Positions 23,879 through 38,746 of a stretch of 42,427 bases of DNA are shown here, piece after piece (position 1 is the first letter of the stretch; each line of letters begins with the position of its first letter). A program made the translations under genes and the position numbers. Location: positions 1 to 42,427 of the forward strand of contig JAFYOS010000021.1 of assembly GCA_017560125.1 (NCBI GenBank), read 5' to 3'. A model generated the notes under the pieces. It searched no databases. It worked only from the letters and a program-made list of their open reading frames with translations, and was not told the DNA's origin. Source of the stretch: Bacteroidaceae bacterium (lineage in GTDB: Bacteria > Bacteroidota > Bacteroidia > Bacteroidales > Bacteroidaceae).

Positions 23879-24439
23879 TCAGAAGTCATACTCCCCCGTG
23901 GAAGTTTCTTCTTCTACGCTACCCTCAATACTCCGTACTTCCTTCGCATCCACTACCATAGCGTCTTTATACCGCTGTGCGATACTCGCAGGGTCTTTCC
24001 GCTCACCAAGCAGTTTGTTATGCGTCATTATCACTTCGCGAGGCTCTTCCTTGTACCCGTACTGTGACTTCAAAATGAATATCCCTGCGATGTTATTCGT
24101 ACCGCCATCCAACGTACTCGCTACCGTAGTGTTCTCGCACAGGCTGTAATACTGTTGCATTACCGTCACTACATCGGGATTCGCCGCGATTATCCGATTC
24201 CGTACATCGTCTATCGTGTCCCTCGGTACTCCAATCGCACTCGCCATGTGTGCTACCGTGGGTAACATCCCGTACCGCTCACATATCTCAAGGATATGCT
24301 CCATTACCTCCGTACAGTAGTTACCGTCCGTTTTCCACTCGATACTCTTCGGCAGTTCCATTATCTCCTTCGTTGCCCGTATCGAACTGCTTATCAATGC
24401 CTTCCGCATTTCTTTGGTGCTTTCCCGTTCCTTTCCCAT
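23879..24439 (-). CDS. Terminase small subunit, 186 aa
   Basis: The first late gene. The ATG at 24439 (MGKERESTKEMRKAL) is placed 8 bases after AAAGGGGG. Residues about 60-90 (YGMLPTVAHMASAIGVPRDTID) form a helix-turn-helix for DNA recognition, followed by helices for oligomerisation (NPDVVTVMQQYYSLCEN) and a C-terminal acidic tail that would bind the large subunit. It sits directly before the large subunit gene. Confidence 0.8.
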   Translation of the reverse strand: MGKERESTKEMRKALISSSIRATKEIMELPKSIEWKTDGNYCTEVMEHILEICERYGMLPTVAHMASAIGVPRDTIDDVRNRIIAANPDVVTVMQQYYSLCENTTVASTLDGGTNNIAGIFILKSQYGYKEEPREVIMTHNKLLGERKDPASIAQRYKDAMVVDAKEVRSIEGSVEEETSTGEYDF

Positions 24440-24463
24440 GTGTCGCACCCCCTTTCACTGCAT

Positions 24464-24493
24464 ATTCTACCATACCCTCCTACCCGTTTGCAA
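24464..24493 (-). promoter_or_regulatory. Late promoter upstream of the small terminase gene
   Basis: On the - strand TTGCAA (24493-24488), an 18-base spacer and an extended -10 TGGTAGAAT (hexamer 24469-24464) match the sigma70/sigmaA pattern. The start would lie about 20 bases before the small terminase gene. The -35 resembles that of the promoter at 38747. Confidence 0.65.
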
Positions 24494-24545
24494 CCCCTAT
24501 CCTGTAGAATACTTCCCCCCTAACGGGTTCGGATTTTACACAGCA

Positions 24546-24606
24546 GTTTTTATAATATACGGTATTTATATATATAAATATATATAAATACCTTTATTAT
24601 AAAAAC
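24546..24606. repeat. 61-bp AT-rich long inverted repeat
   Basis: A perfect outer 12-bp arm (GTTTTTATAATA at 24546-24557 with 24595-24606) encloses a 32-base, nearly perfect palindrome (24561-24592, 14-bp arms). Almost all pairs are A-T. It could extrude as a cruciform, serve as a DNA unwinding element beside the iterons, or terminate transcription. Confidence 0.8.
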
Positions 24607-24797
24607 CGTGGGTTTAAATCCCTTCGGCTGTTTTAGGGAAGCCCTTATTCTACTAAGGACTACGGCTGTAGTACGGGAGGGGTCTTTTTGGAAAAAATGT
24701 GGTTATGAGGGTTACCCCGCGCCCGAACAGGTCGGAAAACACCCCCCACGGGGGTATAGCATAGGTAAACAAAAGTTTAGTGACGGTAAAGGGGTAT

Positions 24798-25187
24798 TTA
24801 TTGGACAGTACGGTTTATCGGACAGTGTAAATTATTGGACAGTCCGTTTTATTGGACAGGGTAATTTATCGGACGCAATGCCTGTTTAGTGTGGGTAAAC
24901 TTGGGTATAGTGTGGGTAAACGATACGCCCGACACAACGCGCGCGTGTATATAGTATTCAAAGCCGCGTATACCCGTATTACGTGCCGACATATAGTTTT
25001 CATTACTACGTAATACCGCATTCCGTGGCGTTATGTAGTTTTCATTACTACGTAGTATCGCATACCGTACTATATTACAGTATCCGCGGCGGGTGTGATA
25101 ATGTGGGTAATTTATTGGACTGTGTAAATTATTGGACTTTATTTTTTCATTTCCGACACGGTAAATTTTAAGGGTAATTTATTGGAC
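24798..25187. repeat. Iteron array: eight TTATYGGAC repeats, mostly at 17-bp spacing
   Basis: Copies start at 24798, 24815, 24832, 24849 and 24866 (exactly 17 bp apart), then 25112 and 25129 (17 bp) and 25179 (50 bp on). All are in the same orientation. Regular same-strand iterons beside an AT-rich dyad are typical of plasmid or phage replication origins or of a cooperatively bound operator. Confidence 0.8.
24994..25054. repeat. Pair of 19-bp direct repeats
   Basis: TAGTTTTCATTACTACGTA occurs at 24994-25012 and 25036-25054, 42 bp apart, lying between the two iteron groups. The second copy continues into the palindrome ACTACGTAGT. They may be protein-binding sites of the same origin or operator complex. 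Confidence 0.6.
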
Positions 25188-25226
25188 TTTATGCCATTAC
25201 CGCGGTGGTATCCGTGCCGCCTATGG

Positions 25227-25238
25227 ATTGTATACAAT
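25227..25238. promoter_or_regulatory. Palindromic operator-like site A
   Basis: ATTGTATACAAT is a perfect 12-bp palindrome. Its core TTGTATACAA also occurs at 25485-25494. Several TACAAT direct repeats follow to 25260. Confidence 0.5.
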
Positions 25239-25481
25239 AATACAATGATACAATTATACAGTGGTACATAACGGATAATTTACAAGACGGCACAAACGAC
25301 ACAAATTTACCGAATGCCCCTACAACGCATTTTAAGCCATTTTAAGAGGGTTTTGCTTTTTACCCTATGCGCATATAGGGTAAAGCCCGAAAAACGCAAA
25401 TACGGCAAAATGCGCTATTTTACAGGGGTTTTCGCGTGTTTTTTGCCGCGGTTGATAGTATCGGATACCCGAAACACCCCC

Positions 25482-25505
25482 AAATTGTATACAAGTATAC
25501 AATTT
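25482..25505. promoter_or_regulatory. Palindromic operator-like site B
   Basis: AAATTGTATAC and GTATACAATTT form perfect 11-bp arms around AA. It shares the core of site A 250 bp away. Two related dyads flanking a gene-free stretch suggest binding of one dimeric regulator, possibly with looping. Confidence 0.55.
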
Positions 25506-25586
25506 CATCGCCAAAAATGGGCAAAAATGGCGGTTTTGGGGGGTATTTTGGGGGTATAAGGCATTAAAATGCCCCTGTTTGCAATC

Positions 25587-25748
25587 GGGGGTTTTGGGTT
25601 TACGGGCGGGGCGGGCGGTTTATCGGTAAACAGGGGCGGCGGGTATCGGCGGGGCGGGGCGTTCCCTGTTTGCCCTGTTTGGGGGTATCCGTTGCCGCTG
25701 TTTGGTATCGTTTGGGGCGGGGTATAATCACGGGGGCGGCGGGGCGGG
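25587..25748 (+). other. G-rich tracts with G-quadruplex potential
   Basis: Three clusters on the + strand fit the four-run pattern: 25587-25615 (runs of 5, 3, 3, 4, 3 G), 25633-25659 and 25714-25748. Upstream, 25518-25556 is also G-rich. The G bias is confined to the + strand over about 200 bp. Confidence 0.6.
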
Positions 25749-25766
25749 TTTACCCCTCTTTTTTTA
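25741..25766 (+). terminator. Candidate rightward terminator before the early promoter
   Basis: GGGG (25741-25744) and CCCC (25753-25756) form a short stem followed by TCTTTTTTT. It would insulate the early promoter from transcription entering from the left. Confidence 0.45.
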
Positions 25767-25803
25767 CTATAGAAAAAAGTGTCCCAAAAACGAAAAGTTT
25801 TTG

Positions 25804-25832
25804 TTGACATTATACGCCGTTTGTAGTATCTT
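25804..25832 (+). promoter_or_regulatory. Candidate early promoter
   Basis: A perfect -35 TTGACA (25804-25809) is followed by a 17-base spacer and TATCTT (25827-25832). It points at the Gp88-like gene, leaving a leader of about 800 bases rich in hairpins. The 10-bp sequence TTTACTATAG flanks it at 25763 and 25831. A plain TATAAT at 26454 without a good -35 is a second, weaker candidate. Confidence 0.6.
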
Positions 25833-26642
25833 TACTATAGTAGTATGGTATATGCTACGGGGGCGGGGTTGCTACCGCCGTAAAGTTTAGTAATCGGGTG
25901 TCGCGCCCTATGCGGCGGCGGGCTTGCTACCGTCAAGACGTTTAGCAAGGTGGACACGGACACGCACCGTTATGCATGGGGTAGAAACCCCCGTAAAAAA
26001 AGAGGTTTGCCGCCATAACAGGCACGGCACATAAATGCCGCAAAACCGCCGCCGCGACTGTTTGCGTGGATATCGGCGGGATGTACAAGCGATTGAACGC
26101 GCGCCGCGTTTGGGGCGTTCCGTGACGGTTTACCGCCGCGCAAAACCCCTGTTAGGCGTAACCCCCCGTCAAGGGGTAGAAACCCCCGTAAAAAAAGCCC
26201 GTGCCGCCTATAGGGCGGCAACGGTAGCACCTTGAAAACAGAATAGAAGAGTCCCCCGTTTAACAAGGCGTATTCCCAACGGGGTAAACGATTTTTTCCG
26301 CGTAAAGTATTCCCGATTGTTACGGTTGTTTAGTTTCAAGGCGGGCGCGCTCACGGTTGAAATGGTTTCAAGTTCCCGCACAAATTTCCCGTGCGGGGCG
26401 GTATGGTAAAGCCGCGGAAAACTTGCAAACGCGAAAACAGCGCAAAAGGGGACTATAATAGAAAACACGCAATTTACCTTTTCAGACTTTCCCCAAAAAG
26501 GGGCGGCGGTATGGATACGCGGCGGGGCACAAACCCGCCACCGCGGGCGGCACTGTAAAACGTGCCGTTAGTTCAATTCCCGCGCGCCGCATTCCCGCAA
26601 AAGCGGGCAGTAAAAAACAATCACTTTTTGGAGGTAAAGACA

Positions 26643-27374
26643 ATGAAAAAGAACACAACAAACAACGTAACAACGGCAACTGTATTTGAGATGGAAGCGG
26701 CTATAAACCGCGCAAAACGTCAACCCACAATTCGCGAATTTCGGGAAAAGTACGGCGTGACTATAACGCTTGCAATGACCGCAAAAATGGAGGGCGTCGC
26801 GGGCGTTACAACATCTGTATTAGAAAATCCCTATTGCAAGGCGCGGCGCGGTATTTGCGGCATGGTTTGCGCGAAATGTTACGCGGCGGCGGGTTTAGCA
26901 CGAAAAGCAAATGTTCCCGAGTGCTACGCGCGAAACACAAAAGCGTTAACGACTCAAATCATACCGATTGACGACTTGCCGCATTTATACAGTGAAACGG
27001 GCTATTTCCGTTTCGAGTCTTTCGGCGACATTTCAACGGAAATGCAAGTAGTTAATTATTTCAATATGGCGGCGGTTAATCCACACATGAAATGTGCATT
27101 ATGGACAAAAAACCCGTGGATAATCCGCGAAGCGATGAAACACTACGGAATTGAAAAGCCGCAAAACCTTGTTATTATCGGAAGTAGTTACTATACCGAC
27201 AAAGCAATGTCATTTGATGCCTATGGTTTTATTGACAAGGTTTTTACGGTATACACGAAACAATACGCCGCGGAAAACGGAATCGAAATAAATTGCGGCG
27301 GGCGTTCTTGTGCGGAATGCGGGCGTTGTTACGAAAACTATGGCGGGCGGTATGTTAACGAACTGTTAAAATAA
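26643..27374 (+). CDS. Gp88-family protein with radical-SAM-like cysteine motif, 243 aa
   Basis: I start at 26643 (MKKNTTNNVTTATVF), after TTTTTGGAGGTAAAGACA. Residues 72-79 (CGMVCAKC) show the CX3CX2C spacing of radical SAM enzymes. FRFESFGDIS (about 122-131) follows, and a second cluster (C218, C223, C226, C229) could bind an auxiliary iron-sulfur centre. The pattern matches the mycobacteriophage Gp88-like family, whose function is unknown. It is the first gene of the leader-RNA module and may modify a nucleotide or peptide. Confidence 0.65.
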   Translation: MKKNTTNNVTTATVFEMEAAINRAKRQPTIREFREKYGVTITLAMTAKMEGVAGVTTSVLENPYCKARRGICGMVCAKCYAAAGLARKANVPECYARNTKALTTQIIPIDDLPHLYSETGYFRFESFGDISTEMQVVNYFNMAAVNPHMKCALWTKNPWIIREAMKHYGIEKPQNLVIIGSSYYTDKAMSFDAYGFIDKVFTVYTKQYAAENGIEINCGGRSCAECGRCYENYGGRYVNELLK

Positions 27375-27392
27375 ACCGCCCGCGGCGGTTTT
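27374..27392 (+). terminator. Possible attenuator after the Gp88-like gene
   Basis: AACCGCC (27374-27380) pairs with GGCGGTT (27384-27390) around CGC, followed by TT. The stem begins on the stop codon. The U tract is only four bases, so partial termination is more likely than full termination. Confidence 0.45.
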
Positions 27393-27468
27393 ACGGGGGT
27401 TTTCCCCCGTAACATAATGTTTTACGAAACATTGTGTTACGGTTGAAAATCACATTTAATCACGGAGG
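27393..27468 (+). promoter_or_regulatory. Structured RNA leader, copy 1
   Basis: Hairpin 1 is ACGGGGG (27393-27399) with CCCCCGT (27404-27410). Hairpin 2 is CCGTAACA (27407-27414) with TGTTACGG (27435-27442), with an inner 7-bp stem AATGTTT/AAACATT. The linker GAAAATCACA leads to the Shine-Dalgarno segment CACGGAGG (27461-27468). The CCCCCGT arm could pair with hairpin 1, hairpin 2 or the Shine-Dalgarno sequence. Confidence 0.75.
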
Positions 27469-27476
27469 GAAAAGTT

Positions 27477-27710
27477 ATGGAAACAAGATGGCAAAACAGA
27501 AAATTTAAAAAGGCGTTTCGTATTTGTTACACGGGCGCGCGCGGCGGGTTGTATTCTTATTGTTGTGATTCCGTCGCCGTTGACAAAAATTTGAATGTTT
27601 ATTGTTTCGATTCTAAAAAGCCCGTGCGAATGATTCCGTTTGCATGGGTTGAAACAATAAAAGATATCAATAGAAACCCTGTTGATATCTTGACGTTGCC
27701 GCACTGTTAA
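27477..27710 (+). CDS. Unknown protein, 77 aa (leader module)
   Basis: The ATG lies 8 bases after CACGGAGG. The product METRWQNRKFKKAFRICYTG is basic at its N-terminus and beta-rich later, with cysteines at about residues 17, 29, 30, 43 and 77. No family is recognised. It is the first of eight small genes that each follow a related two-hairpin leader. Confidence 0.7.
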   Translation: METRWQNRKFKKAFRICYTGARGGLYSYCCDSVAVDKNLNVYCFDSKKPVRMIPFAWVETIKDINRNPVDILTLPHC

Positions 27711-27713
27711 AAA

Positions 27714-27796
27714 ACGGGGGTTTACCCCCATAAACTATTGTTTCACGTGAAACAATGGGTTATGGTAGCAAACCACAAAATTTTTAATCATGGAGG
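27714..27796 (+). promoter_or_regulatory. Structured RNA leader, copy 2
   Basis: Hairpin 1: GGGGG (27716-27720) with CCCCC (27725-27729). Hairpin 2 begins CCATAA (27728-27733) and ends TTATGG (27760-27765); its apical part is the parS-like palindrome. The linker TAGCAAACCACA is shared with copies 7 and 8. The Shine-Dalgarno segment is CATGGAGG (27789-27796), with T where copy 1 has C, matching the A in CCAT. Confidence 0.75.
27739..27754. promoter_or_regulatory. parS-like site (Spo0J/ParB binding consensus)
   Basis: TGTTTCACGTGAAACA matches the Bacillus parS consensus TGTTNCACGTGAAACA at every defined base. It lies in a 20-bp perfect palindrome (27737-27756) that forms the top of hairpin 2 of leader copy 2. 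It may recruit host ParB to the phage DNA, or be a chance product of the RNA stem. Confidence 0.6.
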
Positions 27797-27804
27797 GAAA
27801 AGTT

Positions 27805-28053
27805 ATGAAAATTTTAGCAATCGCGGAAAAGGGGCGTGAATTTATTTACGCGCCGAAAACGGCGCACAAGGTAAACGCCGCAAAAGCGGAAAAAGTCGCG
27901 GCTATACTAAACGAATGCGGCTATATGCTCACGGATGCCGCCCGCTATACGTGGCACGTGTATGACGTTGATAGATACGACAACGCCTACGTATACGCCC
28001 AATATCAAAAATTCACGTACGGCAAAACAGGGTTAAAGCGGGTTTTCTGTTAG
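27805..28053 (+). CDS. Unknown protein, 82 aa (leader module)
   Basis: The true start is the ATG at 27805 (MKILAIAEKGREFIYAPK), 8 bases after CATGGAGG. An in-frame ATG at 27790 overlaps the ribosome binding site. The product is basic with many Tyr and Ala. It shows strand-helix-strand character (ILAIAEKG, AEKVAAILNECG, WHVYDVDRY). No family is recognised. Confidence 0.7.
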   Translation: MKILAIAEKGREFIYAPKTAHKVNAAKAEKVAAILNECGYMLTDAARYTWHVYDVDRYDNAYVYAQYQKFTYGKTGLKRVFC

Positions 28054-28071
28054 TTTCTGCAATTTCTAAAA

Positions 28072-28146
28072 CGGGGGATTTTCCCCCATAGGGGCACAAC
28101 AAAAAGTTGTGTTTCTATGGTAGAAAATCAACTAACTTTTTGGAGG
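28072..28146 (+). promoter_or_regulatory. Structured RNA leader, copy 3
   Basis: Hairpin 1: GGGGG (28073-28077) with CCCCC (28083-28087). Hairpin 2 runs 28086-28120 with CCATAG...CTATGG outer arms and an inner CACAAC/GTTGTG stem. The linker is GGTAGAAAATCA. The Shine-Dalgarno segment here is TTTTTGGAGG, the same as before the Gp88-like gene, and does not copy the stem. Confidence 0.7.
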
Positions 28147-28154
28147 TAAAGACA

Positions 28155-28370
28155 ATGAAAAACGAAATGAAAACGCGAACGGTGGCAAAGGTTACAATGC
28201 ATGGTACATGGACGGTTGTTTATCACGCCGACAAACAAATGTATGCTATCAATCACCGATATTATGACGTTTTGAGCGGAAAACAGCGCACGTTTAAATT
28301 TTCGGAGGTAACGACACTTTCCGCGGCATTGCACACGCTTTACAGGGCGGCGGAATCCATGCGGGAATGA
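28155..28370 (+). CDS. Unknown protein, 71 aa (leader module)
   Basis: The ATG at 28155 (MKNEMKTRTVAKVTMHG) follows TTTTTGGAGGTAAAGACA, a sequence identical to that before the Gp88-like gene. The product is basic and beta-rich at the start (WTVVYHADKQMYAINHRYYD), then a helix (LSAALHTLYRAAESM). The layout resembles small phage proteins with a Tyr-rich strand hairpin. The function is unknown. Confidence 0.7.
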   Translation: MKNEMKTRTVAKVTMHGTWTVVYHADKQMYAINHRYYDVLSGKQRTFKFSEVTTLSAALHTLYRAAESMRE

Positions 28371-28389
28371 CTCAAGAACCCATTTCGGG

Positions 28390-28461
28390 CGGGGATTTTT
28401 CCCCGTGAGCATAGAAAAACGGTTTCTGTGTTCACGGCAAAGAATCACGTTTCTACGGAGG
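28390..28461 (+). promoter_or_regulatory. Structured RNA leader, copy 4
   Basis: Hairpin 1: CGGGGA...TCCCCG (28390-28405). Hairpin 2: CCGTGA (28403-28408) with TCACGG (28432-28437), extended by CATAGAAA/TTTCTGTG. The linker is GGCAAAGAATCACG, shared with copy 5. The Shine-Dalgarno segment is ACGGAGG (28455-28461), matching CCGT. Confidence 0.75.
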
Positions 28462-28469
28462 GAAAGACT

Positions 28470-28727
28470 ATGAAAAACAAGAAAAATCTGTTAGTTGTTT
28501 ACAGCACGGCGCGCGGAACTGTTGCCGCGAAAAAATGTGAAAACATGATTTCTGACCACGGGCGCGGCGGGGTTTTGTTAGATTGTGAGCATTTGGTAAA
28601 ATATGAGCGCGTTTTGGCTATATTTTGGGATGATGTGCAAATCTATGAAAAACCCGAATTTTCCTATATCCGCTATAGCGGCGGCTATGCTTCTGCTATT
28701 GACCGTGTCTTGTGCGGCGAGTTCTGA
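28470..28727 (+). CDS. Unknown protein, 85 aa (leader module)
   Basis: The start at 28470 (MKNKKNLLVVYSTARGTVAA) follows TACGGAGGGAAAGACT. The strand LLVVYSTARGTVAAKKCENMI and the later LAIFWDD suggest a small alpha/beta fold. It contains two cysteines and a glycine-rich turn (GRGGVLLDC). No function is recognised. Confidence 0.7.
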   Translation: MKNKKNLLVVYSTARGTVAAKKCENMISDHGRGGVLLDCEHLVKYERVLAIFWDDVQIYEKPEFSYIRYSGGYASAIDRVLCGEF

Positions 28728-28744
28728 GCGGGTTTTTCTGCAAG

Positions 28745-28816
28745 CGGGGATTTTTCCCCGTGAACGCGGAAATTTTGGTTTCTGCGCTCACGGCAAAGAA
28801 TCACGAAAACGGGAGG
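28745..28816 (+). promoter_or_regulatory. Structured RNA leader, copy 5
   Basis: Hairpin 1: CGGGGA...TCCCCG (28745-28760). Hairpin 2: CCGTGA (28758-28763) with TCACGG (28788-28793), extended by CGCGGAAA/TTTCTGCG. The arms differ from copy 4 at paired positions but keep pairing. The Shine-Dalgarno segment is ACGGGAGG, ending at 28816. Confidence 0.75.
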
Positions 28817-28824
28817 TTTTGAAA

Positions 28825-29094
28825 ATGTATCTTTTAGTGAAAAACGGGCGCGTTGAATTTATGTTTGATGCGGAGGAAAACGGCGGGCGCGTGGTTTCTG
28901 AGGCACAACAAGCGGCGGAGTTTCTGTTCGATTGTACCTGTGATGAGGAAATCAACGTAAACGAGTACGAGTTGTGGTTTTTGTGTCCGACAATCGGAGA
29001 TAATGTCACATCCGTTTCTGCTCACTTTTCAGACCGCGAAACAGGGAAAATGAGGTCGATTTTTTCTGACCTTGTTTTCAAAAGCGCGTGGTAA
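28825..29094 (+). CDS. Unknown acidic protein, 89 aa (leader module)
   Basis: The ATG at 28825 (MYLLVKNGRVEFMFDAEENG) follows ACGGGAGGTTTTGAAA. The product is acidic and beta-rich at the N-terminus, then carries a helix (SEAQQAAEFLFDC) and two further strands. Its acidic surface is the type seen in DNA-mimic and anti-defence proteins, but this is only a compositional hint. Confidence 0.7.
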   Translation: MYLLVKNGRVEFMFDAEENGGRVVSEAQQAAEFLFDCTCDEEINVNEYELWFLCPTIGDNVTSVSAHFSDRETGKMRSIFSDLVFKSAW

Positions 29095-29100
29095 TGGTAC

Positions 29101-29174
29101 GGGGGTTTATGCCCCCATATGGGCGCGGCGTTTGCCGCGCTTGTATGGTAACATAAACACATTTTCTATGGAGG
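29101..29174 (+). promoter_or_regulatory. Structured RNA leader, copy 6
   Basis: Hairpin 1: GGGGG (29101-29105) with CCCCC (29112-29116). Hairpin 2 starts CCATA (29115-29119), ends TATGG (29144-29148) and has an inner GCGCGGC/GCCGCGC stem. The Shine-Dalgarno segment is ATGGAGG (29168-29174), again matching the A of CCAT. Confidence 0.75.
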
Positions 29175-29182
29175 GAAAAGTT

Positions 29183-29611
29183 ATGAAAGCAACATTGTTA
29201 GAATCGACTTATCCGTATGCACGAAAGCCGCTTTTGAGAATGCCGAAAAAGCATTTTTCTGCGGGTTATGTCGCCGTGGTGTTCCGTGCGGGGCTTGTCT
29301 ATGAGGCGGTAACAATCCGAGTATACGAAACGGACACGCGCACCTATGCTCACGTGTACATTTCGGACAACTGTTCGTGGGTTGATACAAAAACCGAGCG
29401 GGAACTGTTCTACGGTATCGGAACGGGTAGCGCGGGCGGCGGTGGATATCACAAGGCATCGGCGGCGGTGGAGGAGGCATTCTGCAACGCGGGCGTAAAG
29501 TTCGACACGTACTTGCACAGTGACTACGATATCATGTTAGCCGCGCAAGCGGTAGCAAGGGCGTTGTGGGCTGACGCGGACTACGTGCACGTATCCGAAA
29601 TCGGGTCATAA
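29183..29611 (+). CDS. Unknown protein, 142 aa (leader module)
   Basis: It starts at 29183 (MKATLLESTYPYARKPLLR) after CTATGGAGGGAAAAGTT. Strand-rich core (YVAVVFRAGLVYEAVTIRVY), a glycine loop (GTGSAGGGG) and a C-terminal helix (IMLAAQAVARALWAD). The glycine loop is followed by YHKASAAVEEAFCNAG. No known nucleotide-binding signature fits. The function is unknown. Confidence 0.7.
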   Translation: MKATLLESTYPYARKPLLRMPKKHFSAGYVAVVFRAGLVYEAVTIRVYETDTRTYAHVYISDNCSWVDTKTERELFYGIGTGSAGGGGYHKASAAVEEAFCNAGVKFDTYLHSDYDIMLAAQAVARALWADADYVHVSEIGS

Positions 29612-29630
29612 TCCGCAAGCGATTGCGGGC

Positions 29631-29676
29631 GGGGGTTTACCCCCGTGAGCAGGTATCTGCGGATATCTGCTCACGG
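29631..29676 (+). promoter_or_regulatory. Structured RNA leader, copy 7 (long spacer)
   Basis: Hairpin 1: GGGGG (29631-29635) with CCCCC (29640-29644). Hairpin 2: CCGTGAGCAG (29643-29652) with CTGCTCACGG (29667-29676), plus inner pairs, a perfect stem. The linker TAGCAAACCACG follows. Unlike other copies, about 140 bases separate it from the next Shine-Dalgarno (TTGGAGG, to 29821). In that spacer a 22-codon frame starting GTG at 29760 ends 1 base before the next ATG region, but its GGAGG is only 2 bases away, so I do not call it a gene. Confidence 0.7.
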
Positions 29677-29830
29677 TAGCAAACCACGATTGTAAACGGC
29701 TGTAAACCGTTACCGCGGAAGTAACAGCACACAACGTGCCACGCGCCGTTGTGGAGGTTGTGAAAACCAACACGGGCAATAGAAACGGCGTTTGCATCAC
29801 AAACAAACAACTTTTTGGAGGTAACTGAAA

Positions 29831-30103
29831 ATGGAAGAAATGGTAACTATTGGACTCACGCACGAACTTAAAATGTCGCGGGATTGGTGGGAACTGTTCG
29901 ACAAAGCCGAACAGATTGCACACAAGGAAGCAACCAAACTGTATCGTTTGGCGTGGAGGATGACGGAACACAACTGTTCCGAGGAGGCAATCCGCAAATG
30001 TAGAGAAGAGGCGCGGACGTTACACGAGGGCGTTGGAGCAAATCCCGCATGGTTTCTCGATTGGTTCGGCGCACACAAGTTTGTGTACGCTTTTAAGTTC
30101 TGA
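29831..30103 (+). CDS. Unknown helical protein, 90 aa (leader module)
   Basis: Starts MEEMVTIGLTHELKMSRDWW after TTTTTGGAGGTAACTGAAA. The protein is mainly helical, Glu/Lys/Arg-rich with several Trp, and has cysteines at about residues 54 and 62. No family is recognised. Confidence 0.7.
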   Translation: MEEMVTIGLTHELKMSRDWWELFDKAEQIAHKEATKLYRLAWRMTEHNCSEEAIRKCREEARTLHEGVGANPAWFLDWFGAHKFVYAFKF

Positions 30104-30124
30104 GTTTTCCACTTGCGAACAGCA

Positions 30125-30204
30125 ACGGGGGTTTACCCCCGTAAGCATACAATCTGCGGGTTGTGTGCTTACGGTAGCAAACCACAAAATTTTAATCACG
30201 GAGG
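30125..30204 (+). promoter_or_regulatory. Structured RNA leader, copy 8
   Basis: Hairpin 1: ACGGGGG (30125-30131) with CCCCCGT (30136-30142). Hairpin 2: CCGTAAGCA (30139-30147) with TGCTTACGG (30166-30174), extended by TACAAT/GTTGTG. Linker TAGCAAACCACA. The Shine-Dalgarno segment is CACGGAGG (30197-30204), matching CCGT. Confidence 0.75.
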
Positions 30205-30213
30205 TATCTGAAA

Positions 30214-30810
30214 ATGGCAATTGTTAGACATGATGGGGAAATCAAATACGAGGGCGCGGTGTTGACAACATACGACCATATGTGGATGGACGGAATGTTA
30301 GAAACAACGGCAATCTGTTGGGACATCGAGAAGCACGAGGCGGTGCATATCATGGTTGGATACTATGGTAGCGATTGTTGCAATATGTGCGGCGGTAGTT
30401 ACGAGATTGACGCTACGGAAGAGGTCAAACGAGATATTCTGCGAACCTTGAAGCGGCGCGCCGCGGAAAGTTTTGCAAGGTCGGTAGTGGAGTACAAACA
30501 GGAAATCCGAGCAGGTCGCACAGCGGTCGTTGCGCGGGGTCGCAAAGTTCCGAAGGGAACTGAGGTTACCGTCTTTTGGGTGGGTGACCGCCCTACGTAC
30601 CGTAGCCGCGGATACGCATGGATGAACGAAACGGAGCGCATCGCGGGATGCAAGGACGCGGACGGAAACAAGATTTGGATTAAAGCCGAATATCTTGAAG
30701 CAACCGATATTTTGAAAAGCCCTTCTGCAAAAGAGCGGAAAAAGTTCATAAAGTCGTGGGTGCAGGAAAGCGCGAAAGCCTACAACATCCACTGCAAGTA
30801 TTGGAGGTGA
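30214..30810 (+). CDS. Unknown protein with KOW/SH3-like segment, 198 aa (last of the leader module)
   Basis: It starts MAIVRHDGEIKYEGAVLTTY after CACGGAGGTATCTGAAA. The N-terminal half contains CCNMCGG (about residue 55). The second half has VVARGRKVPKGTEVTVFWVG and the strand NKIWIKAEYLEA, a small beta-barrel pattern like KOW/SH3 domains that bind RNA or the transcription machinery. The hammerhead ribozyme begins 3 bases after its stop, so cleavage would define the 3' end of its mRNA. Confidence 0.7.
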   Translation: MAIVRHDGEIKYEGAVLTTYDHMWMDGMLETTAICWDIEKHEAVHIMVGYYGSDCCNMCGGSYEIDATEEVKRDILRTLKRRAAESFARSVVEYKQEIRAGRTAVVARGRKVPKGTEVTVFWVGDRPTYRSRGYAWMNETERIAGCKDADGNKIWIKAEYLEATDILKSPSAKERKKFIKSWVQESAKAYNIHCKYWR

Positions 30811-30812
30811 AA

Positions 30813-30869
30813 GCCGAAACGCCCGTAGGGGCGTATAGCGCGGGATGGCAACCCCGCTACTGATGAGGC
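30813..30869 (+). ncRNA. Type II hammerhead ribozyme
   Basis: All core elements are present in the permuted type II order: open stem II GCC (30813-30815), GAAA (30816-30819), stem III CGCCC/GGGCG with GTAG loop (30820-30833), U-A (30834-30835), stem I TAGCG (30836-30840) with CGCTA (30855-30859) and an inner GGG/CCC, the exact CTGATGA box (30860-30866), and GGC (30867-30869) closing stem II with the required G-C pair. Cleavage is predicted between 30835 and 30836. It would separate the leader module from the downstream genes. Confidence 0.88.
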
Positions 30870-30901
30870 AAGCCACAAACAAACAACGGGAGGTTTGAAA
30901 G

Positions 30902-31105
30902 ATGGAACAGTATTTTGCAACCAAGACAGATGCCAACGGCAACAGATTTGTGCTGTATATCAACCACGGAACGAAACGGTTCACGGTGAGTTGTTTTCTG
31001 ATGGTTCACAAGAGCGACATAACCGCAACGGTCACGCGGAAAAAGATGCGCGAAATCTGCTTTGAACTCAAGGAAAACGGGTACACCGAATACATCAAAC
31101 TGTAA
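30902..31105 (+). CDS. Unknown protein, 67 aa
   Basis: First gene after the ribozyme, starting MEQYFATKTDANGNRFVLYI after AACGGGAGGTTTGAAAG. A beta-hairpin-rich N-terminus is followed by a C-terminal helix (KKMREICFELKENGYTEY). No family is recognised. Its mRNA would start with a 5'-hydroxyl end 66 bases upstream if the ribozyme is active. Confidence 0.65.
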   Translation: MEQYFATKTDANGNRFVLYINHGTKRFTVSCFLMVHKSDITATVTRKKMREICFELKENGYTEYIKL

Positions 31106-31119
31106 AGGAGGATTACAAA

Positions 31120-31584
31120 ATGAAGTGGTACGGAAGTCTTAACAACAGGCTTGAAGAGAACAGAGAGTTCTGCGAGGTCATCGAGGTTGGTACAGGAATG
31201 ACCGAATATCTGTGGAGCGACAGACACGCATACGAAGTAATCGAGGTCAAGTCGCAAAAAAACGTGGTGGTTCGGGAACTCGGACACCGCGCAAAGAGCG
31301 AGGGATGGCACAACGATTGGGAACTGTACAGCGACCCGAATCTGCCGACCCTTGAAATGGTCAAGCGAGGCAAGTATTGGTACTCGGTGGTCGAGTGTAC
31401 ACCCGAGGACGCACAGAGAGCAAAGGACGCATACGCGAACGGCAAGTACGACCTGCTTCTGTGGATGGCACACAACGACTTCAACGCGGACGAGATACTC
31501 GCCACGGGCAAGGCGAAAAAGAAGTATCACCGAAAGAATGTAAGTTTCGGGATTGCTGATTACTACTACGACTTCGAGTTCTAA
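31120..31584 (+). CDS. Unknown protein, 154 aa
   Basis: It starts MKWYGSLNNRLEENREFCEV after AAAGGAGGATTACAAA. Strands (CEVIEVGTGMTEYLWSD, NVVVRELGHRA) alternate with an acidic helix (PEDAQRAKDAYANGKYDLL), and the C-terminus is Lys- and Tyr-rich. It has the size and composition of an early host-takeover protein, but there is no recognised domain. Confidence 0.7.
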   Translation: MKWYGSLNNRLEENREFCEVIEVGTGMTEYLWSDRHAYEVIEVKSQKNVVVRELGHRAKSEGWHNDWELYSDPNLPTLEMVKRGKYWYSVVECTPEDAQRAKDAYANGKYDLLLWMAHNDFNADEILATGKAKKKYHRKNVSFGIADYYYDFEF

Positions 31585-31616
31585 GCGATATCAATGAGAG
31601 ATTAGGAGGTAGCGAC

Positions 31617-31811
31617 ATGATGGGAAAAAGATATGCCGAGCCGTGCAAACGGTGGGGCGGTGTGTGGTGCGTAGCCGTACACGATGAATACGGATGGTGC
31701 TATATGTGCAAGTACGATGATACAAAAGAGGATTGGGTTACCTGCACGTTTGACACGCAGGAAGAAGCGGAGAAAGCCGCGCAGGAATACACGGATTTCT
31801 TTAAGGAATAA
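31617..31811 (+). CDS. Unknown protein, 64 aa
   Basis: Starts MMGKRYAEPCKRWGGVWCVA after TTAGGAGGTAGCGAC. Five Cys/Trp-rich turns (WCVAV, WCYMC, WVTC) and a C-terminal acidic helix (EEAEKAAQEYTDF). A compact strand domain with a cap helix is likely. The function is unknown. Confidence 0.65.
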   Translation: MMGKRYAEPCKRWGGVWCVAVHDEYGWCYMCKYDDTKEDWVTCTFDTQEEAEKAAQEYTDFFKE

Positions 31812-31817
31812 GCCACG

Positions 31818-31886
31818 GTGGGTAATCCCCCGCGCGCGGGAGCAACGCCCGCGGCGTGGCATACGGCGAAACGCCGAAATAAAATC
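31818..31886 (+). other. Highly structured GC-rich leader before the gene at 31902
   Basis: GCCACG (from 31812) can pair with CGTGGC (31855-31860). Inside lie a GC palindrome (CCCGCGCGCGGG) and CCGCGG, and downstream CGGCGAAACGCCG forms a 5-bp hairpin. The RNA must fold strongly, but I cannot assign a known ribozyme or riboswitch. Confidence 0.4.
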
Positions 31887-31901
31887 TTAGGAGGATTGAC
31901 T

Positions 31902-32231
31902 ATGGAAACAACAAAGTATGGGTTGAAGGTCATCATCTGCGACCCGAACACCAAAGAGGGAATGAACAGCGACCTGTTCTTCGACCTCGATGATTGCGCC
32001 ATCTGCTACGACCCCGCCGACTACGGCAACGGGTGCGTGGCGTATATCGGAAGCAGGGACGGGTTCTTCGACCTGCACAGAAACATCTGCATCGACCTGC
32101 GGTACGAAAAGGGCTTCCGCAAGGAAGATGCGGAAGCGTGGTTTGAAAAATGGGCGCGCGAGTATTGGAACGGCGAGGGCGGCAACTACACAGTAAAAAG
32201 AATCGTGATTACGAAGGAGGTAGTAAGATGA
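31902..32231 (+). CDS. Unknown acidic protein, 109 aa
   Basis: I start at 31902 (METTKYGLKVIICDPNTKEG), after TTAGGAGGATTGACT; the longer frame upstream reads the structured leader. Strands plus a helix with Trp (EDAEAWFEKWAREYWNG) are seen. Acidic, with several Cys and Asp (FFDLDDCAICYDPADYG). No family is recognised. Its end overlaps the next ATG by 4 bases. Confidence 0.65.
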   Translation: METTKYGLKVIICDPNTKEGMNSDLFFDLDDCAICYDPADYGNGCVAYIGSRDGFFDLHRNICIDLRYEKGFRKEDAEAWFEKWAREYWNGEGGNYTVKRIVITKEVVR

Positions 32232-32500
32232 CAAACGAGGCAAAGAAACTGTTGGAAGGATGGGGCGCGAGGATGCTCATTTCGGAGGTCGCTATGGCAT
32301 CGCAGTATGCCACCGAGTGCAAGCACGAGTTCGGAAGAAACGCGCAGGAAACGCAGGATGCAAGAGAGGAATTGCAGTTCACGGTGGAACTGCTCGACAA
32401 GAAAGTCAAGGAGTTGGAAGAGAAGGCAAAGGTTGCCGACAAGGTTGTATCGGCACTCGAACTTATCAACGAGATTATGGAGGTACAGAAAAATGGCTAA
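32228..32500 (+). CDS. Coiled-coil protein, 90 aa
   Basis: The product begins MTNEAKKLLEGWGARMLISE and from about residue 40 is a long Glu/Lys/Gln coiled coil (QETQDAREELQFTVELLDKK). AAGGAGGTAGTAAG precedes the ATG, and the end overlaps the next gene by 8 bases. A dimeric adaptor or regulator is possible. There is no specific family. Confidence 0.65.
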   Translation: MTNEAKKLLEGWGARMLISEVAMASQYATECKHEFGRNAQETQDAREELQFTVELLDKKVKELEEKAKVADKVVSALELINEIMEVQKNG

Positions 32501-32963
32501 AGGATTAAACGCACAGGAAGTATTGGAGAACATCGACAAGTGTATCGCAGAGATTGGGAACGGAATCGAGTGTTATTGGAGATACCCGCGCTACGCAAGA
32601 ACGAGAAGCGGCAAGGTCGGGTTCAAGATTCGAGAGGTTTGTGAGGAACTGTCCATCTTTGATTGGTGGAATGATGAACTGTCCGTGTCGCAGTTGAAGC
32701 AGATGCGGGCGTTCGTAAAGACCGCCATCAAGTTGGGGTTCACGGGCTATGTCTGCTTCAAGGTCGGCGCGACAGGTTGTAGCCACGGTATGTGGGCGGC
32801 AAAGGAAGAGAGCCTTGACGGGTACAGCCCAAATGGCGACACCCTGTTCCACAGTTTTCGGTGTGACGAGAACAATTGGAGCATCTGCCTTAACGACAAG
32901 TGGGGCGCATACAATATGACGCTTGCGGAAGTTAAGGACGCGATAGCGCGGAAGGAGGTATGA
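32493..32963 (+). CDS. Unknown protein, 156 aa
   Basis: It starts MAKGLNAQEVLENIDKCIAE after GGAGGTACAGAAAA. An N-terminal helix is followed by basic and aromatic strands and another helix (SVSQLKQMRAFVKTAIKLGF). The C-terminal half contains GCSHGMWAAKEES. I do not recognise the family. Confidence 0.65.
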   Translation: MAKGLNAQEVLENIDKCIAEIGNGIECYWRYPRYARTRSGKVGFKIREVCEELSIFDWWNDELSVSQLKQMRAFVKTAIKLGFTGYVCFKVGATGCSHGMWAAKEESLDGYSPNGDTLFHSFRCDENNWSICLNDKWGAYNMTLAEVKDAIARKEV

Positions 32964-32967
32964 CACA

Positions 32968-33423
32968 ATGTATTACGGACAGAGGCAGTTTCCGAAAGAA
33001 GATAGGTGGGAGTTCAAGTACGAGCGGGACGGGCACACACGGTACTGCTACCCGCGCTCGAAAGAGTCCATCGAGGACAACCGAAAGTTCTGTTTGGAAA
33101 AGGGGTGGAAGGTTCTGTCGGTCAAGAAGGTCTACCCCTTCTCCACCGAGAAGAATCAGCACAACTTTGAACTCATCCGCAACGTGTGTTCCAATCGGAT
33201 GCACGACATGGATATGGGTGACATCCCGTATGACGGGGAGGCATACGACAAGATGTACGACCTAAAGGAACGTGCGGAGCAGTACATGGGTCTGCCACTT
33301 CCTGTGGCATGGTTGCCCTATGAGCAACTGAAGGAGGCTAAAGAGATTGTGGCTATGGCGCACGAGCATCGGTATGCCGCAAACCTTGCGGCAGGTAATT
33401 ACAGATGGTTGCATTTGTGTTAA
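32968..33423 (+). CDS. Unknown protein, 151 aa
   Basis: Starts MYYGQRQFPKEDRWEFKYER after GGAAGGAGGTATGACACA. Rich in Tyr, Arg and Lys, with a helix (ESIEDNRKFCLEKGWK) and a C-terminal helical segment (EQLKEAKEIVAMAHEHRYAA). No family is recognised. Confidence 0.65.
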   Translation: MYYGQRQFPKEDRWEFKYERDGHTRYCYPRSKESIEDNRKFCLEKGWKVLSVKKVYPFSTEKNQHNFELIRNVCSNRMHDMDMGDIPYDGEAYDKMYDLKERAEQYMGLPLPVAWLPYEQLKEAKEIVAMAHEHRYAANLAAGNYRWLHLC

Positions 33424-33440
33424 AACGGAAGGAGGAACAG

Positions 33441-33632
33441 ATGACAATACAGGAAGCAAAGAACCACTTCGGGTTGCAAGACGGTGACCGCATAAGGCGC
33501 GAAGGTCTGTTGGCTATCAAAGCCGCAGACGAGAAATCACTTAGCGTATGGTCGCAAAGCACTTCAATAAAAGCCGAACTAAGATTAGAGATAGAAGCAA
33601 TCAATGTGTTGCTGATAATTGCAGAAGATTAA
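33441..33632 (+). CDS. Small unknown protein, 63 aa
   Basis: Starts MTIQEAKNHFGLQDGDRIRR after GGAAGGAGGAACAG. A short helix, a basic GDRIRREG turn and strands suggest a small barrel or HTH-like fold. The function is unknown. Confidence 0.6.
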   Translation: MTIQEAKNHFGLQDGDRIRREGLLAIKAADEKSLSVWSQSTSIKAELRLEIEAINVLLIIAED

Positions 33633-33644
33633 GGAGGTATGATT

Positions 33645-33893
33645 ATGGAAAGATTGATGTTTAACACATTCGCTTACAAGGTGAGCGAGTATTGGCGATG
33701 CGACATATCCGAGTCATCGTGCCGTGATATTGACACATATGACGCTTGGTTATACCACAAGGATTGTGGAATCAAAATGTTTATGTTCGGTGTCGATGTG
33801 AGGGATTGTGGCATCGAGCAGTTTAAGCAGATGGTGTCCAATTTGTGGGTTGACTATGTGAGCGAGTACACCGAGAGATTTATGGAGGAGTGA
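33645..33893 (+). CDS. Unknown protein, 82 aa
   Basis: I choose the ATG at 33645 because AAGGAGGT is only 1 base from the in-frame ATG at 33639 but 7 bases from this one. The product is acidic, aromatic and Cys-containing (WRCDISESSCRDIDTYDAWL), ending in an acidic helix. No family is recognised. Confidence 0.6.
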   Translation: MERLMFNTFAYKVSEYWRCDISESSCRDIDTYDAWLYHKDCGIKMFMFGVDVRDCGIEQFKQMVSNLWVDYVSEYTERFMEE

Positions 33894-33895
33894 TT

Positions 33896-34165
33896 ATGGA
33901 AAAACTCGGAATAGTTACCGCAAACGATACGTTTCTTGTTTGCGGAGGGGAATATATCCCGTACAAGTGCAAGGTGTTCCGAGGCGGCAAGGTGGTAACG
34001 CAATATAGGGCTAAGGTTTTCTCGGTGACCGACCATTGGTTTGATAGCGACTACCACGACATCTACAACGTCCACAAGGACGCATATGTAAAGAACAACC
34101 GCGGAAGAAAATATTACCTAAAGAACGCGCAGATTAGTATCGACAGAAAGACGATATATGTGTAG
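33896..34165 (+). CDS. Unknown basic protein, 89 aa
   Basis: It starts MEKLGIVTANDTFLVCGGEY after GGAGTGATT, 2 bases after the previous stop. Beta-rich and basic (CKVFRGGKVVTQYRAKVF; C-terminal NNRGRKYYLKNAQISIDRK), consistent with a small nucleic-acid-binding barrel, but not proven. Confidence 0.6.
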   Translation: MEKLGIVTANDTFLVCGGEYIPYKCKVFRGGKVVTQYRAKVFSVTDHWFDSDYHDIYNVHKDAYVKNNRGRKYYLKNAQISIDRKTIYV

Positions 34166-34179
34166 AACAGGAGGGCATT

Positions 34180-34986
34180 ATGGAGGTAACATTCACGACA
34201 CCGACAGGCACGACCTACAGCCTGTTCAATGATATGCTCAAGCAATCCCACCTGTTGATTGCGGGGGCTTCGGGTAGTGGTAAGTCCGTTCTTGTGAACG
34301 GGCTTATCTGCACCGCCCTGTACAGCCACCCGTTCGACAAGGCAGGTGGGAAGCAGTTGATTCTGATTGACCCCAAGCGGACGGAGTTAAGCCCGTACAA
34401 GCGAGTTCCGCACTGCCTGCGGTATGCAAGCGAACCGAACACAATGGTTGACGCACTGCACTACGCACTCGGCATTGTGGAGCAGAGATACCGAGTGATG
34501 GAAGCACAGGGGTTACGCAAGTACAACGGCAGTGATGTGTACGTCATCATCGAGGAGTTGGCAGATTTGATGACCACACAGAAGCGGACGGTACAACCAC
34601 TGATTCAGCGGTTGTGTCAGATAGCACGGGCGGCACGAGTTCACCTGTGGGCAATCACACAGTGTCCTCTCGCTACCATAATAACCACCCCCATTAAGGT
34701 CAATTTCGATGGCATCGTAGCACTCCGCACACGATGTGCACAGGACAGCCGAAACATCATCGGGGTGAAGGGAGCAGAGGTTCTGCCGAGGTACGGCGAT
34801 TGCCTGTATCTGACACCCGACAAGACCGAGGTTGAGCGGTGGAAAGTTCCGTACATCACGGAAGCAGAGCAGAGCGAAATGATTCGGTGGTGGGTAGCGC
34901 AGTTGCCGACAAGACAGCCACTGCCGACACCGCCGTTTCCGACACCGCCGAGGCGCGGATTCTTCAAGAGATTATTTGGGAGGTAA
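34180..34986 (+). CDS. FtsK/SpoIIIE-like ATPase, 268 aa
   Basis: Walker A GASGSGKS (residues 29-36), an FtsK-type IDPKRTEL segment (63-70), Walker B VIIEELADL (122-130) and the LIQRLCQIARAARVHLWAIT block (141-160) define the FtsK motor domain. It lacks the membrane and gamma DNA-binding domains of cellular FtsK; a Pro-rich tail ends RGFFKRLFGR. It could move or resolve phage DNA. Such minimal motors also occur in plasmids and conjugative elements. RBS AGGAGGGCATT. Confidence 0.85.
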   Translation: MEVTFTTPTGTTYSLFNDMLKQSHLLIAGASGSGKSVLVNGLICTALYSHPFDKAGGKQLILIDPKRTELSPYKRVPHCLRYASEPNTMVDALHYALGIVEQRYRVMEAQGLRKYNGSDVYVIIEELADLMTTQKRTVQPLIQRLCQIARAARVHLWAITQCPLATIITTPIKVNFDGIVALRTRCAQDSRNIIGVKGAEVLPRYGDCLYLTPDKTEVERWKVPYITEAEQSEMIRWWVAQLPTRQPLPTPPFPTPPRRGFFKRLFGR

Positions 34987-34990
34987 AACA

Positions 34991-35200
34991 ATGGAAACCA
35001 AGTTAGCATGGATTCGGAGAATGAACGGGTTGAGTCAGACCCAACTCGCAAAGAAGTCGGGGGTATGTGCAAATGCCATCCGCAATTATGAGCAGAGAAG
35101 GCGAAGGATAGATGCCGCATCTGCCGAGGTCGTGTGGAGGCTTGCCACGGTACTCGAAGTGCCGATGGAATCCCTCCTCGAACACGACAAAGAGTTCTGA
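34991..35200 (+). CDS. XRE-family helix-turn-helix regulator, 69 aa
   Basis: Residues 6-62 form a Cro/C1-type HTH (LAWIRRMNGLSQTQLAKKSG, then CANAIRNYEQRRRRIDAA). It is single-domain, so more like Cro than a CI repressor. It lies directly upstream of a strong promoter with an inverted repeat over its -35, a likely target. RBS TTGGGAGGTAAAACA. Confidence 0.85.
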   Translation: METKLAWIRRMNGLSQTQLAKKSGVCANAIRNYEQRRRRIDAASAEVVWRLATVLEVPMESLLEHDKEF

Positions 35201-35203
35201 AAA

Positions 35204-35232
35204 TGAAACATTGTTGTTGACATTTTGTTTCA
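35204..35232. promoter_or_regulatory. Inverted repeat (operator candidate) over the second early promoter
   Basis: TGAAACA (35204-35210) and TGTTTCA (35226-35232) are perfect inverted arms spaced by 15 bases. They flank and enter the -35 region of the promoter at 35217. The XRE gene ends 4 bases upstream, so autoregulation or repression of the downstream genes is plausible. Confidence 0.55.
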
Positions 35233-35245
35233 CATTTGGTACAAT
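35217..35245 (+). promoter_or_regulatory. Strong second early promoter
   Basis: TTGACA (35217-35222), a 17-base spacer and TACAAT (35240-35245) make the best sigma70/sigmaA match in the window. It drives the operon from 35281, including recombination and replication genes. Confidence 0.8.
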
Positions 35246-35280
35246 TAGATAGTAGCAAGGCTACAAGGAAGGAGATAACT

Positions 35281-35517
35281 ATGACCGATACGCAGTATGA
35301 TTACATCAAGGAAAATCTGCCGAAGTGGGCAGAGAAAATCGAGGAAGTCGCCCGACTTATGGAAGGGCAAAGAGCCAATGAATATGAATCCGCTCTTTAC
35401 CTCAACGGTTATCTTTGGGGACTTTCCGCAGGGGCATCCCTTCTCGGGATGCTGTCTGAGGCTGACGAGTTCACGCTCGAAACTATCAAGAGAATTAAGG
35501 AGGAACAGGAAAGATGA
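35281..35517 (+). CDS. Unknown helical protein, 78 aa
   Basis: Starts MTDTQYDYIKENLPKWAEKI after GGAAGGAGATAACT, 36 bases after the promoter -10. Mostly helical and acidic, with a small Gly/Leu-rich segment (GYLWGLSAGASLLGML). The function is unknown. The stop overlaps the next start. Confidence 0.65.
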   Translation: MTDTQYDYIKENLPKWAEKIEEVARLMEGQRANEYESALYLNGYLWGLSAGASLLGMLSEADEFTLETIKRIKEEQER

Positions 35518-35792
35518 AGCGTTGCGACAAATGTGGGAACTTAGCGCGGGAGTTGTTCGCGTGGGACGGTGAGGAGATTTGTATAGGATGTCTTGACAGG
35601 GAAACCGAAAGCATATGTTTCCGTTGTGACGAGTGCGGTGACGCGGATAACCCACTGCACGAATACAACGGGCAGAAACTTTGCTTTTGCTGTCTGTGTA
35701 ACAAACTCAAGGTTCACGATTATGCGTGGGAAACTGACGACAGCCCCGACCCGATGGATATTGCAAGGGCTTGGGCTGTAGACCATATGTGA
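35514..35792 (+). CDS. Cysteine-rich zinc-finger protein, 92 aa
   Basis: Three zinc knuckles: CDKCG (residues 4-8), CIGC (about 23-26), CDEC (about 38-41) and CFCCLC (about 57-62). This tandem pattern suits a double zinc ribbon or treble-clef protein. RBS AAGGAGGAACAGGAAAG. Likely nucleic-acid or protein binding in early infection. The function is otherwise unknown. Confidence 0.7.
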   Translation: MKRCDKCGNLARELFAWDGEEICIGCLDRETESICFRCDECGDADNPLHEYNGQKLCFCCLCNKLKVHDYAWETDDSPDPMDIARAWAVDHM

Positions 35793-35805
35793 AAGGAGAA
35801 ACGAT

Positions 35806-36895: not shown

Positions 36896-36909
36896 AAGGA
36901 GGATAACGG

Positions 36910-37730: not shown

Positions 37731-37733
37731 CCT

Positions 37734-38312: not shown

Positions 38313-38315
38313 ATC

Positions 38316-38738: not shown

Positions 38739-38746
38739 ATTGGCTA

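Follow-up and report, generated by a model that had tools for sequence, protein, structure and literature searches.

In bacteriophage T7, ribonuclease III (RNase III) sites sit between the early genes. Such sites (R1.1 and like) are described as imperfect hairpins of the phage message in which structure counts for more than sequence (PMC8708148). Prophage hammerhead ribozymes, according to Perreault et al. 2011, flank single genes or short blocks of genes, implying that long transcripts may be processed (PMC3088659), and the SAS and ESAS elements of cluster K mycobacteriophages, according to Pope et al. 2011, occur in many copies, about half of them with inverted repeats, just upstream of different gene starts (PMC3203893). 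Here we compare with these systems an array of eight structured RNA elements (c1 to c8), one before each gene of a phage small-gene module, in a window (the whole stretch of DNA analysed) that is the complete 42,427-base contig C17 (JAFYOS010000021.1). The elements belong to a kind already known, intercistronic phage RNA elements, while the element itself appears not to have been described: we found no description of it in the open-licence literature, where the nearest systems were SAS/ESAS, the STAXI motif, hammerhead arrays and the T7 sites. All the evidence is computational and comes from this one contig. Little is understood of how phages separate or balance the expression of tightly packed small genes, and eight diverged copies with a predicted ribozyme in the ninth gap offer a natural internal experiment, in which structure is fixed while sequence varies before unrelated genes.

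Small plus-strand genes fill the region from a GP88-like gene (26643-27374) to position 30214, and each of the eight consecutive gaps between 27374 and 30214 (88-219 nt, n = 8) holds one coding-strand element of 58-62 nt. An initial annotation of this DNA had proposed a repeated, structurally conserved RNA before eight unrelated genes, and this was borne out with one element per gap in 8/8 gaps and with no two of the encoded proteins related at E < 0.01 (blastp; the lowest value, for g1 and g4, was 0.022 over 28 aa). Its further statement that a linker and then the ribosome binding site follow each element applies to seven copies, where the element lies immediately 5' of that site; in c7 the site lies farther downstream. 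The first hairpin, P1, has the form GGGG(G)-loop-CCCC(C), with a C ahead of the G run in 8/8 copies and with G and C runs of equal length in every copy (5/5 in six, 4/4 in c4 and c5). The second, P2, starts CCRT, closes AYGG, and contains 15-16 pairs below an apical loop of 4-5 nt; the longer start CCRTRA given in the annotation fits most copies, but not c3 (CCATAG) or c6 (CCATAT).

The linker, described as conserved, proved to be more than that, as it pairs and covaries with the loop of hairpin 1 in a third helix, H, that had been overlooked. This complementarity is present in every copy (53/56 cells). The 5' side of H comprises seven letters, namely the last one or two G of P1, the loop and, in five copies, the first C, and its 3' side is seven letters of the linker; the helix is complete in five copies and contains one A-C in c2, c7 and c8. 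Stacked together, H and P2 give an extended hairpin of 22-24 helix positions in 8/8 copies, consisting of a seven-position lower stem (H), a small internal loop that is symmetric in all eight (2x2 in seven, 3x3 in c6), and, above this loop, P2 with 15-17 positions, capped by a tight apical loop. Because P1 and H have letters in common, each element could fold into two hairpins, into the extended hairpin or, if P1 gives up some of its pairs, into a pseudoknot. Few letters are invariant outside helices: the C ahead of the G run and, where the extended fold forms, also the G and C runs.

Pairing is retained across the copies while loops and inner stems vary, as the annotation had stated. In an eight-row alignment—which is model-fitted and so biased toward structure, with c6 out of register for H—97.5% of P1 and P2 cells are paired and 28 cells are changed on both sides, neither value being reached in any of 500 shuffles, and pairing falls to 42-46% when partners are slid by one column. 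The extended form gives 95.4% paired cells with 31 double changes in the same alignment, again with 0/500 shuffles as good. We also ran swap and permutation tests on the letters of the copies themselves, choosing registers by hand or from the best match. For P2, the two arms of a copy match at 13-14 of 14 positions in seven copies (without c2), compared with a mean of 9.7 (range 7-14) over 42 swaps, and the 5' arm of c5 gains one pair when its own 3' arm is exchanged for that of c4. For H, the own-pairing sum of 51.5 compares with a permutation mean of 41.0, and 24 of 40,320 permutations do as well; as c4/c5 and c2/c7/c8 are kin and not independent, we note that with the five distinct pairs alone the figure is 2/120. 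Individual H positions pass through several pair types: G-C, G-U, A-U and U-A at position 2; U-A, U-G and A-U at position 5; and C-G, U-A and G-C at position 7. The compensatory changes in P2 and H suggest selection to maintain the structure. P1 hardly varies, so that covariation is uninformative for it; the matched lengths of its G and C runs lend it weak support.

The 181 helix positions include 18 G-U and 4 A-C oppositions, an excess that would be expected if selection acts on coding-strand RNA. A DNA-level element was rejected on this 18-to-4 ratio and on the much higher scores that the covariance model gives to the coding strand, although for c2 and c7 the opposite strand gives a slightly better fold, which counts against the rejection. 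The elements differ here from SAS/ESAS, for which the authors consider RNA hairpins poorly supported and prefer DNA-binding sites, whereas in the present array the pairing is kept and the sequence is not. The 13-bp consensus GGGATAGGAGCCC reported there (PMC3203893) was not seen on reading through the eight leaders, no dedicated pattern search being made for it.

As the annotation had proposed, a covariance model could be built from the copies; ours used seven, leaving out the divergent c6, and it recovers all eight in the window, with c6 at E 2.7e-07. Reverse-strand echoes of the other copies come close to the score of c6, the strongest reaching 28.6 bits. Apart from such echoes, just two further places in the genome bin matched (18.1 and 15.3 bits, with 150 of 357 candidates scored). 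No described class was known to the annotation, and we likewise found no family at gathering score on the elements among the 4227 models of Rfam release 15, where sub-threshold matches were mostly to microRNA and small RNA models. The STAXI motif (RF01728), with no Rfam match here, differs in consisting of tandem repeats and is listed from Enterobacteriales. Coordinates and scores of all features are collected in Table 1.

Table 1. Elements of the array and associated features of the window. Scores for c1 to c8 are from the seven-copy covariance model.
Feature	Position	Strand	Score (bits)	H pairs	P2	Following gene	Remarks
Element c1	27394..27453	+	74.6	7/7, one G-U	16 bp	27477-27710
Element c2	27715..27776	+	65.7	6/7, one A-C	16 bp + one mismatch	27805-28053
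Element c3	28072..28131	+	61.6	7/7	15 bp	28155-28370
Element c4	28390..28448	+	72.3	7/7, one U-G	15 bp	28470-28727
Element c5	28745..28804	+	72.2	7/7, one U-G	15 bp + one mismatch	28825-29094	H identical to that of c4
Element c6	29100..29160	+	29.9	7/7	15 bp	29183-29611	Divergent, outside the model; 3x3 internal loop
Element c7	29630..29687	+	72.6	6/7, one A-C	15 bp	29831-30103	Ribosome binding site ~140 nt downstream
Element c8	30126..30185	+	79.1	6/7, one A-C	16 bp	30214-30810
Type II hammerhead ribozyme, predicted	30812..30878	+				30902-31105	Rfam RF02276; ninth gap (91 nt)
Promoter-like site	25804..25832	+					5' of entire module; TTGACA-17-TATCTT, 10/12, consensus match only
GP88 gene	26643..27374	+					Precedes array; Pfam GP88 (PF17338), E 1.8e-07; syntenic in L025, 59% identity

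The gap that follows the array contains a predicted hammerhead, aligned over the full model (1-66/66) including GAAA and CUGAUGA, with 37.7 bits against a gathering threshold of 37. This places the locus beside the prophage hammerhead arrays, which are likewise structured RNAs next to single phage genes, but Rfam hammerhead models match only 30812-30878 in the window and none of the eight elements. Hammerhead-like DNA was found by blastn in at least 17 Streptomyces phage records and in Dulem virus 39, among the matches listed (20 of 30 records), and these records match the window at the hammerhead alone. The 11 gaps after the array include two of 90-91 nt and nine of about -8 to 32 nt, lengths for which three gene starts were set by hand, two of these one base off. 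The second long gap (31811-31902, 90 nt) contains a predicted three-way junction and hairpin (z -1.8) without any Rfam family match, and this RNA, at 31805-31901 (+), is possibly a further punctuation RNA.

The annotation left open whether such RNAs exert a shared post-transcriptional control or are RNase processing sites. Processing fits somewhat better, because helix length is nearly constant, all gaps are occupied, promoters are not in excess and a hammerhead lies in the next gap; near-fixed helix length with free sequence, one element per gap and a ribozyme alongside point to the cutting or insulating of a message. We therefore tentatively favour intercistronic processing or insulating elements in one long message, perhaps cut by an RNase III-like enzyme. 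Each element would be an intercistronic punctuation mark in one long early transcript, and a double-strand-specific nuclease of the RNase III type, most likely the host's, would read the length and shape of the helix and not its sequence. Cutting, or mere protection of ends, would then leave the small genes as individually stable, translatable pieces, with the hammerhead doing an equivalent job in the ninth gap through self-cleavage. P1 could form first during transcription and compete with H, so that the two-hairpin or pseudoknot state might be transient or a resting form. We infer all of the steps—transcription as a single message, the prevailing fold, cleavage, the enzyme and the effect on expression—from the computed features. 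Compared with the T7 sites, the locus, with its putative cleavage, differs in carrying eight copies of one architecture and a GGGG/CCCC hairpin that competes with the lower stem. If processing is correct, the array would serve as a compact, modular insulator and add an independent case of processing between cistrons.

Several observations weigh against this reading, beginning with the question of which fold prevails. Each of the eight leaders folds better than all of its 200 shuffles (z -3.6 to -5.5), and low folding energy is in itself unspecial here, as 26 windows of 120 nt within 24201-42427 have z below -3.2, many of them intragenic. For the element alone, the extended fold is more stable than the plain two-hairpin fold by 0.5-3.9 kcal/mol in 8/8 copies, but for c2, c7 and c8 the minimum combines P1 and P2 with a small third hairpin. 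When leaders run to about the start codon, the lowest fold is P1+P2 for c1, c2, c7 and c8 and the extended form for c3-c6; a further 18 nt of gene brings P1 into the lowest fold of six copies (all but c3 and c4). The two-hairpin and extended forms are thus predicted to be nearly balanced, with the balance shifting as flanks are included. A mostly double-stranded hairpin of about two helical turns, the kind of structure taken as a criterion for RNase III sites, can accordingly be formed in 8/8 copies, but other folds are lower in some copies and contexts. The GGGG and CCCC runs hardly vary, a constancy that an ordinary RNase III hairpin would not require, and the Shine-Dalgarno (SD) sequence reads AYGG(G)AGG in 6/8 copies, with Y matching the R of CCRT, which hints at a translational link. 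Finally, a syntenic relative retains part of the neighbourhood and not the elements, as described below.

The pattern at the SD sequence bears most directly on a shared translational switch, in which ribosome access for all eight genes would be set jointly by the two competing folds, or by a protein (of phage or host) with a preference for one fold, making the module an RNA operon under repeated leaders; we consider this doubtful, though it is the main rival. Such a switch would account for the ribosome binding site lying just downstream in 7/8 copies and for the two close alternative folds available to every copy, and CCCCRT could also pair with the SD sequence in the six matching copies. The chance of the Y matches among these six is 1/15 by a hand count that assumes independence, which the copies do not have, and the SD match may instead have arisen by duplication of a cassette together with its SD sequence, with c3 and c7 not fitting the pattern. 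The predicted ensemble leaves the start codon of c6 largely paired (unpaired 0.17-0.20), whereas the SD sequence is partly open in all seven copies computed (without c2; highest unpaired values 0.73-0.99, pseudoknots excluded), so that full hiding of the SD sequence is not predicted in any of these seven. The scarcity of invariant letters outside helices also speaks against a switch. A riboswitch would have a ligand-binding core of conserved unpaired letters, and the few invariant letters named above are what the copies show in this respect.

That P1 and H are compatible on paper as a pseudoknot, judged from the pairings, raises the idea that the elements are a new class of small self-cleaving ribozyme, built as an H-type pseudoknot from P1, the loop-to-linker helix H and the hairpin P2, which would act in the eight gaps as the hammerhead would in the ninth. 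The hammerhead next in series and the C before the G run in 8/8 copies would suit such a ribozyme, but the few invariant letters outside helices leave scant space for a catalytic core, all Rfam ribozyme models stay below threshold on the elements, and H outside P1 amounts to just 4 uninterrupted pairs in c7 and c8. A pseudoknot descriptor proved loose, with 26 plus-strand and 25 minus-strand matches in the window compared with 11 each after local shuffling, and we regard a new ribozyme as highly improbable. A broader formulation, in which a hitherto undescribed class of small phage RNA, bistable or pseudoknotted, serves as repeating punctuation with one unit in each gap, interchangeable with hammerheads and dividing the message by regulated or autocatalytic cleavage, seems to us unlikely, though less so.

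The two alternative hairpins are also attenuator-like, as would suit a transcription-level element (an antiterminator, attenuator or terminator), and c1 carries a terminator-like site on the coding strand. None of the other seven copies does, and terminator-like sites are rarer in the region than expected (6 found vs. 11.2, sd 3.5), which makes this explanation quite improbable; an intrinsic terminator in the strict sense, a G+C-rich hairpin followed by a U tract, was rejected because it is found in 1/8 copies only. Promoter-like sites in the region are not enriched either (13 found vs. 11.2 expected, sd 2.8). One of them spans the first gap (27390-27418, 9/12 matches), and the two best are that upstream of the module (Table 1) and another within the GP88 gene. 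Transcription of all array genes in one message would be the simplest picture. We also considered a trans-acting RNA carrying TTGCTACCG, which occurs at 25869-25877 and 25924-25932 on the plus strand and is complementary to the linkers of c7 and c8 and, with one mismatch, of c2; this was rejected, as the other five linkers are not matched. The same sequence has 7 occurrences on both strands of the window, compared with 0.33 expected.

The absence of promoter excess is relevant to a further comparison, since T4-type mobile regulatory cassettes, which are repeated intergenic cassettes among small genes much like this array, carry promoters. These cassettes, reportedly the subject of Arbiol et al. 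2010, would be a precedent for reading the elements as a spreading cassette of little function of its own, copied together with its SD region as a recombination linker between small genes. Shared SD cassettes are consistent with such copying: TCAYGGAGGGAAAAGTTATG occurs in c1 and c2 and in similar form in c6, and ACTTTTTGGAGGTAA occurs in c3, c7 and before the GP88 gene. The syntenic relative L025 has no array in the 14,840 bases covered. There, the order of genes is as in the window, namely GP88, a g2 homologue sharing 61% over 36 aa, and an FtsK-like gene (64%), yet the covariance model finds no elements; the gap before the g2 homologue has ~15 letters including the ribosome binding site, and a longer gap, with a G+C-rich hairpin of another kind, follows the GP88 gene. 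The elements were thus either gained in the lineage of the window or lost in L025. Against a cassette of little function, compensatory change along P2 and H suggests selection on structure, and a single orientation with one copy per gap is orderly for a drifting element. We consider this explanation, which is compatible with the others, rather unlikely as the main account. Note additionally that the L025 homologue, together with SD spacing, led us to place the start of the second protein at 27805 and not at the in-frame ATG at 27790.

The annotation had suggested a phage RNA family, which is supported within this contig only; no homologue was found outside it in viral and genome contigs, genomes, phages and plasmids, metagenome contigs lying outside the scope, and a lack of further homologues is among the outcomes that the annotation had named as refuting its idea. 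DNA patterns, which detect close variants only, gave no match in viral contigs, except for one that matched 92 stretches, 80 of which were listed as loci; none of their 30 distinct sequences reaches P2 >= 9/10 together with H >= 6/7, thresholds passed by 5/5 pattern-matched copies of the window, and the covariance model, applied to 31 of the 80, gave 22.1 bits at best. In genome contigs a DNA pattern gave 10 loci, none convincing (best model score 16.4 bits), four of them Anaerotruncus records with near-identical unrelated sequence. Among 399 genomes of the bin's family the model matched two, the bin itself and an A/T-rich hairpin at 25.9 bits, and it gave the identical two matches among 44 genomes of the bin's genus, a set partly overlapping the former; there was no match at E <= 1e-4 among 391 genomes of another class, and a single terminator-like chance match (27.2 bits) in a set of 3 genomes. 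The family, genus and other-class scans used stricter filters with few candidates per genome, and weak relatives may escape them, because the family scan omitted c6 and the other-class scan omitted the 27.2-bit match.

Relatives were recovered among viral contigs, eight by a scan with the large terminase (TerL) and two with GP88, while the TerL scan of genome contigs and the g2 and g8 scans of viral contigs gave none. No element was found in the eight TerL-relative records or in L038; a GGGG-loop-CCCC scan of the eight found one unrelated place, in L010, and six relative loci yielded just one 12-nt P1-like match (L026, 10 bits). With blastn, the search against phages returned 30 records, and among the matches listed (20 of 30) those not to the hammerhead were short; two single elements gave 0 and 5 phage records (E >= 3), and the search against plasmids gave 1 record (E 0.1).

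The contig belongs to a 2.6-Mb bin with an estimated contamination of 6.4%, and carries tailed-phage genes. Those for the portal, the large terminase, the tape measure and tail proteins lie on the minus strand, and the plus strand has FtsK-like, Erf-like and DnaD-like genes. Strong GGAGG sites precede many of the phage genes, and the bin may not be the real host. Upstream of the module, between the structural and early modules, a ~2-kb stretch in which reading showed no obvious genes contains 17-bp iterons TTTATTGGACAGT at 24797-25137, possibly a replication origin. A direct repeat GGGGTAGAAACCCCCGTAAAAAAAG with a P1-like hairpin occurs 5' of the module at 25978-26002 and 26173-26197, and a tRNA-like cloverleaf fold, in which ARAGORN calls no tRNA, is predicted upstream of the GP88 gene at 26500-26600 (+). 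Further downstream, a DnaD-like open reading frame contains 10-bp and 12-bp tandem repeats at 39207-39350, and the plus-strand gap at 38738-38885, between genes that are SSB-like (by reading) and DnaD-like, has no Rfam match at gathering score and is predicted to form a large multibranched RNA (-75.1 kcal/mol, z -10.1).

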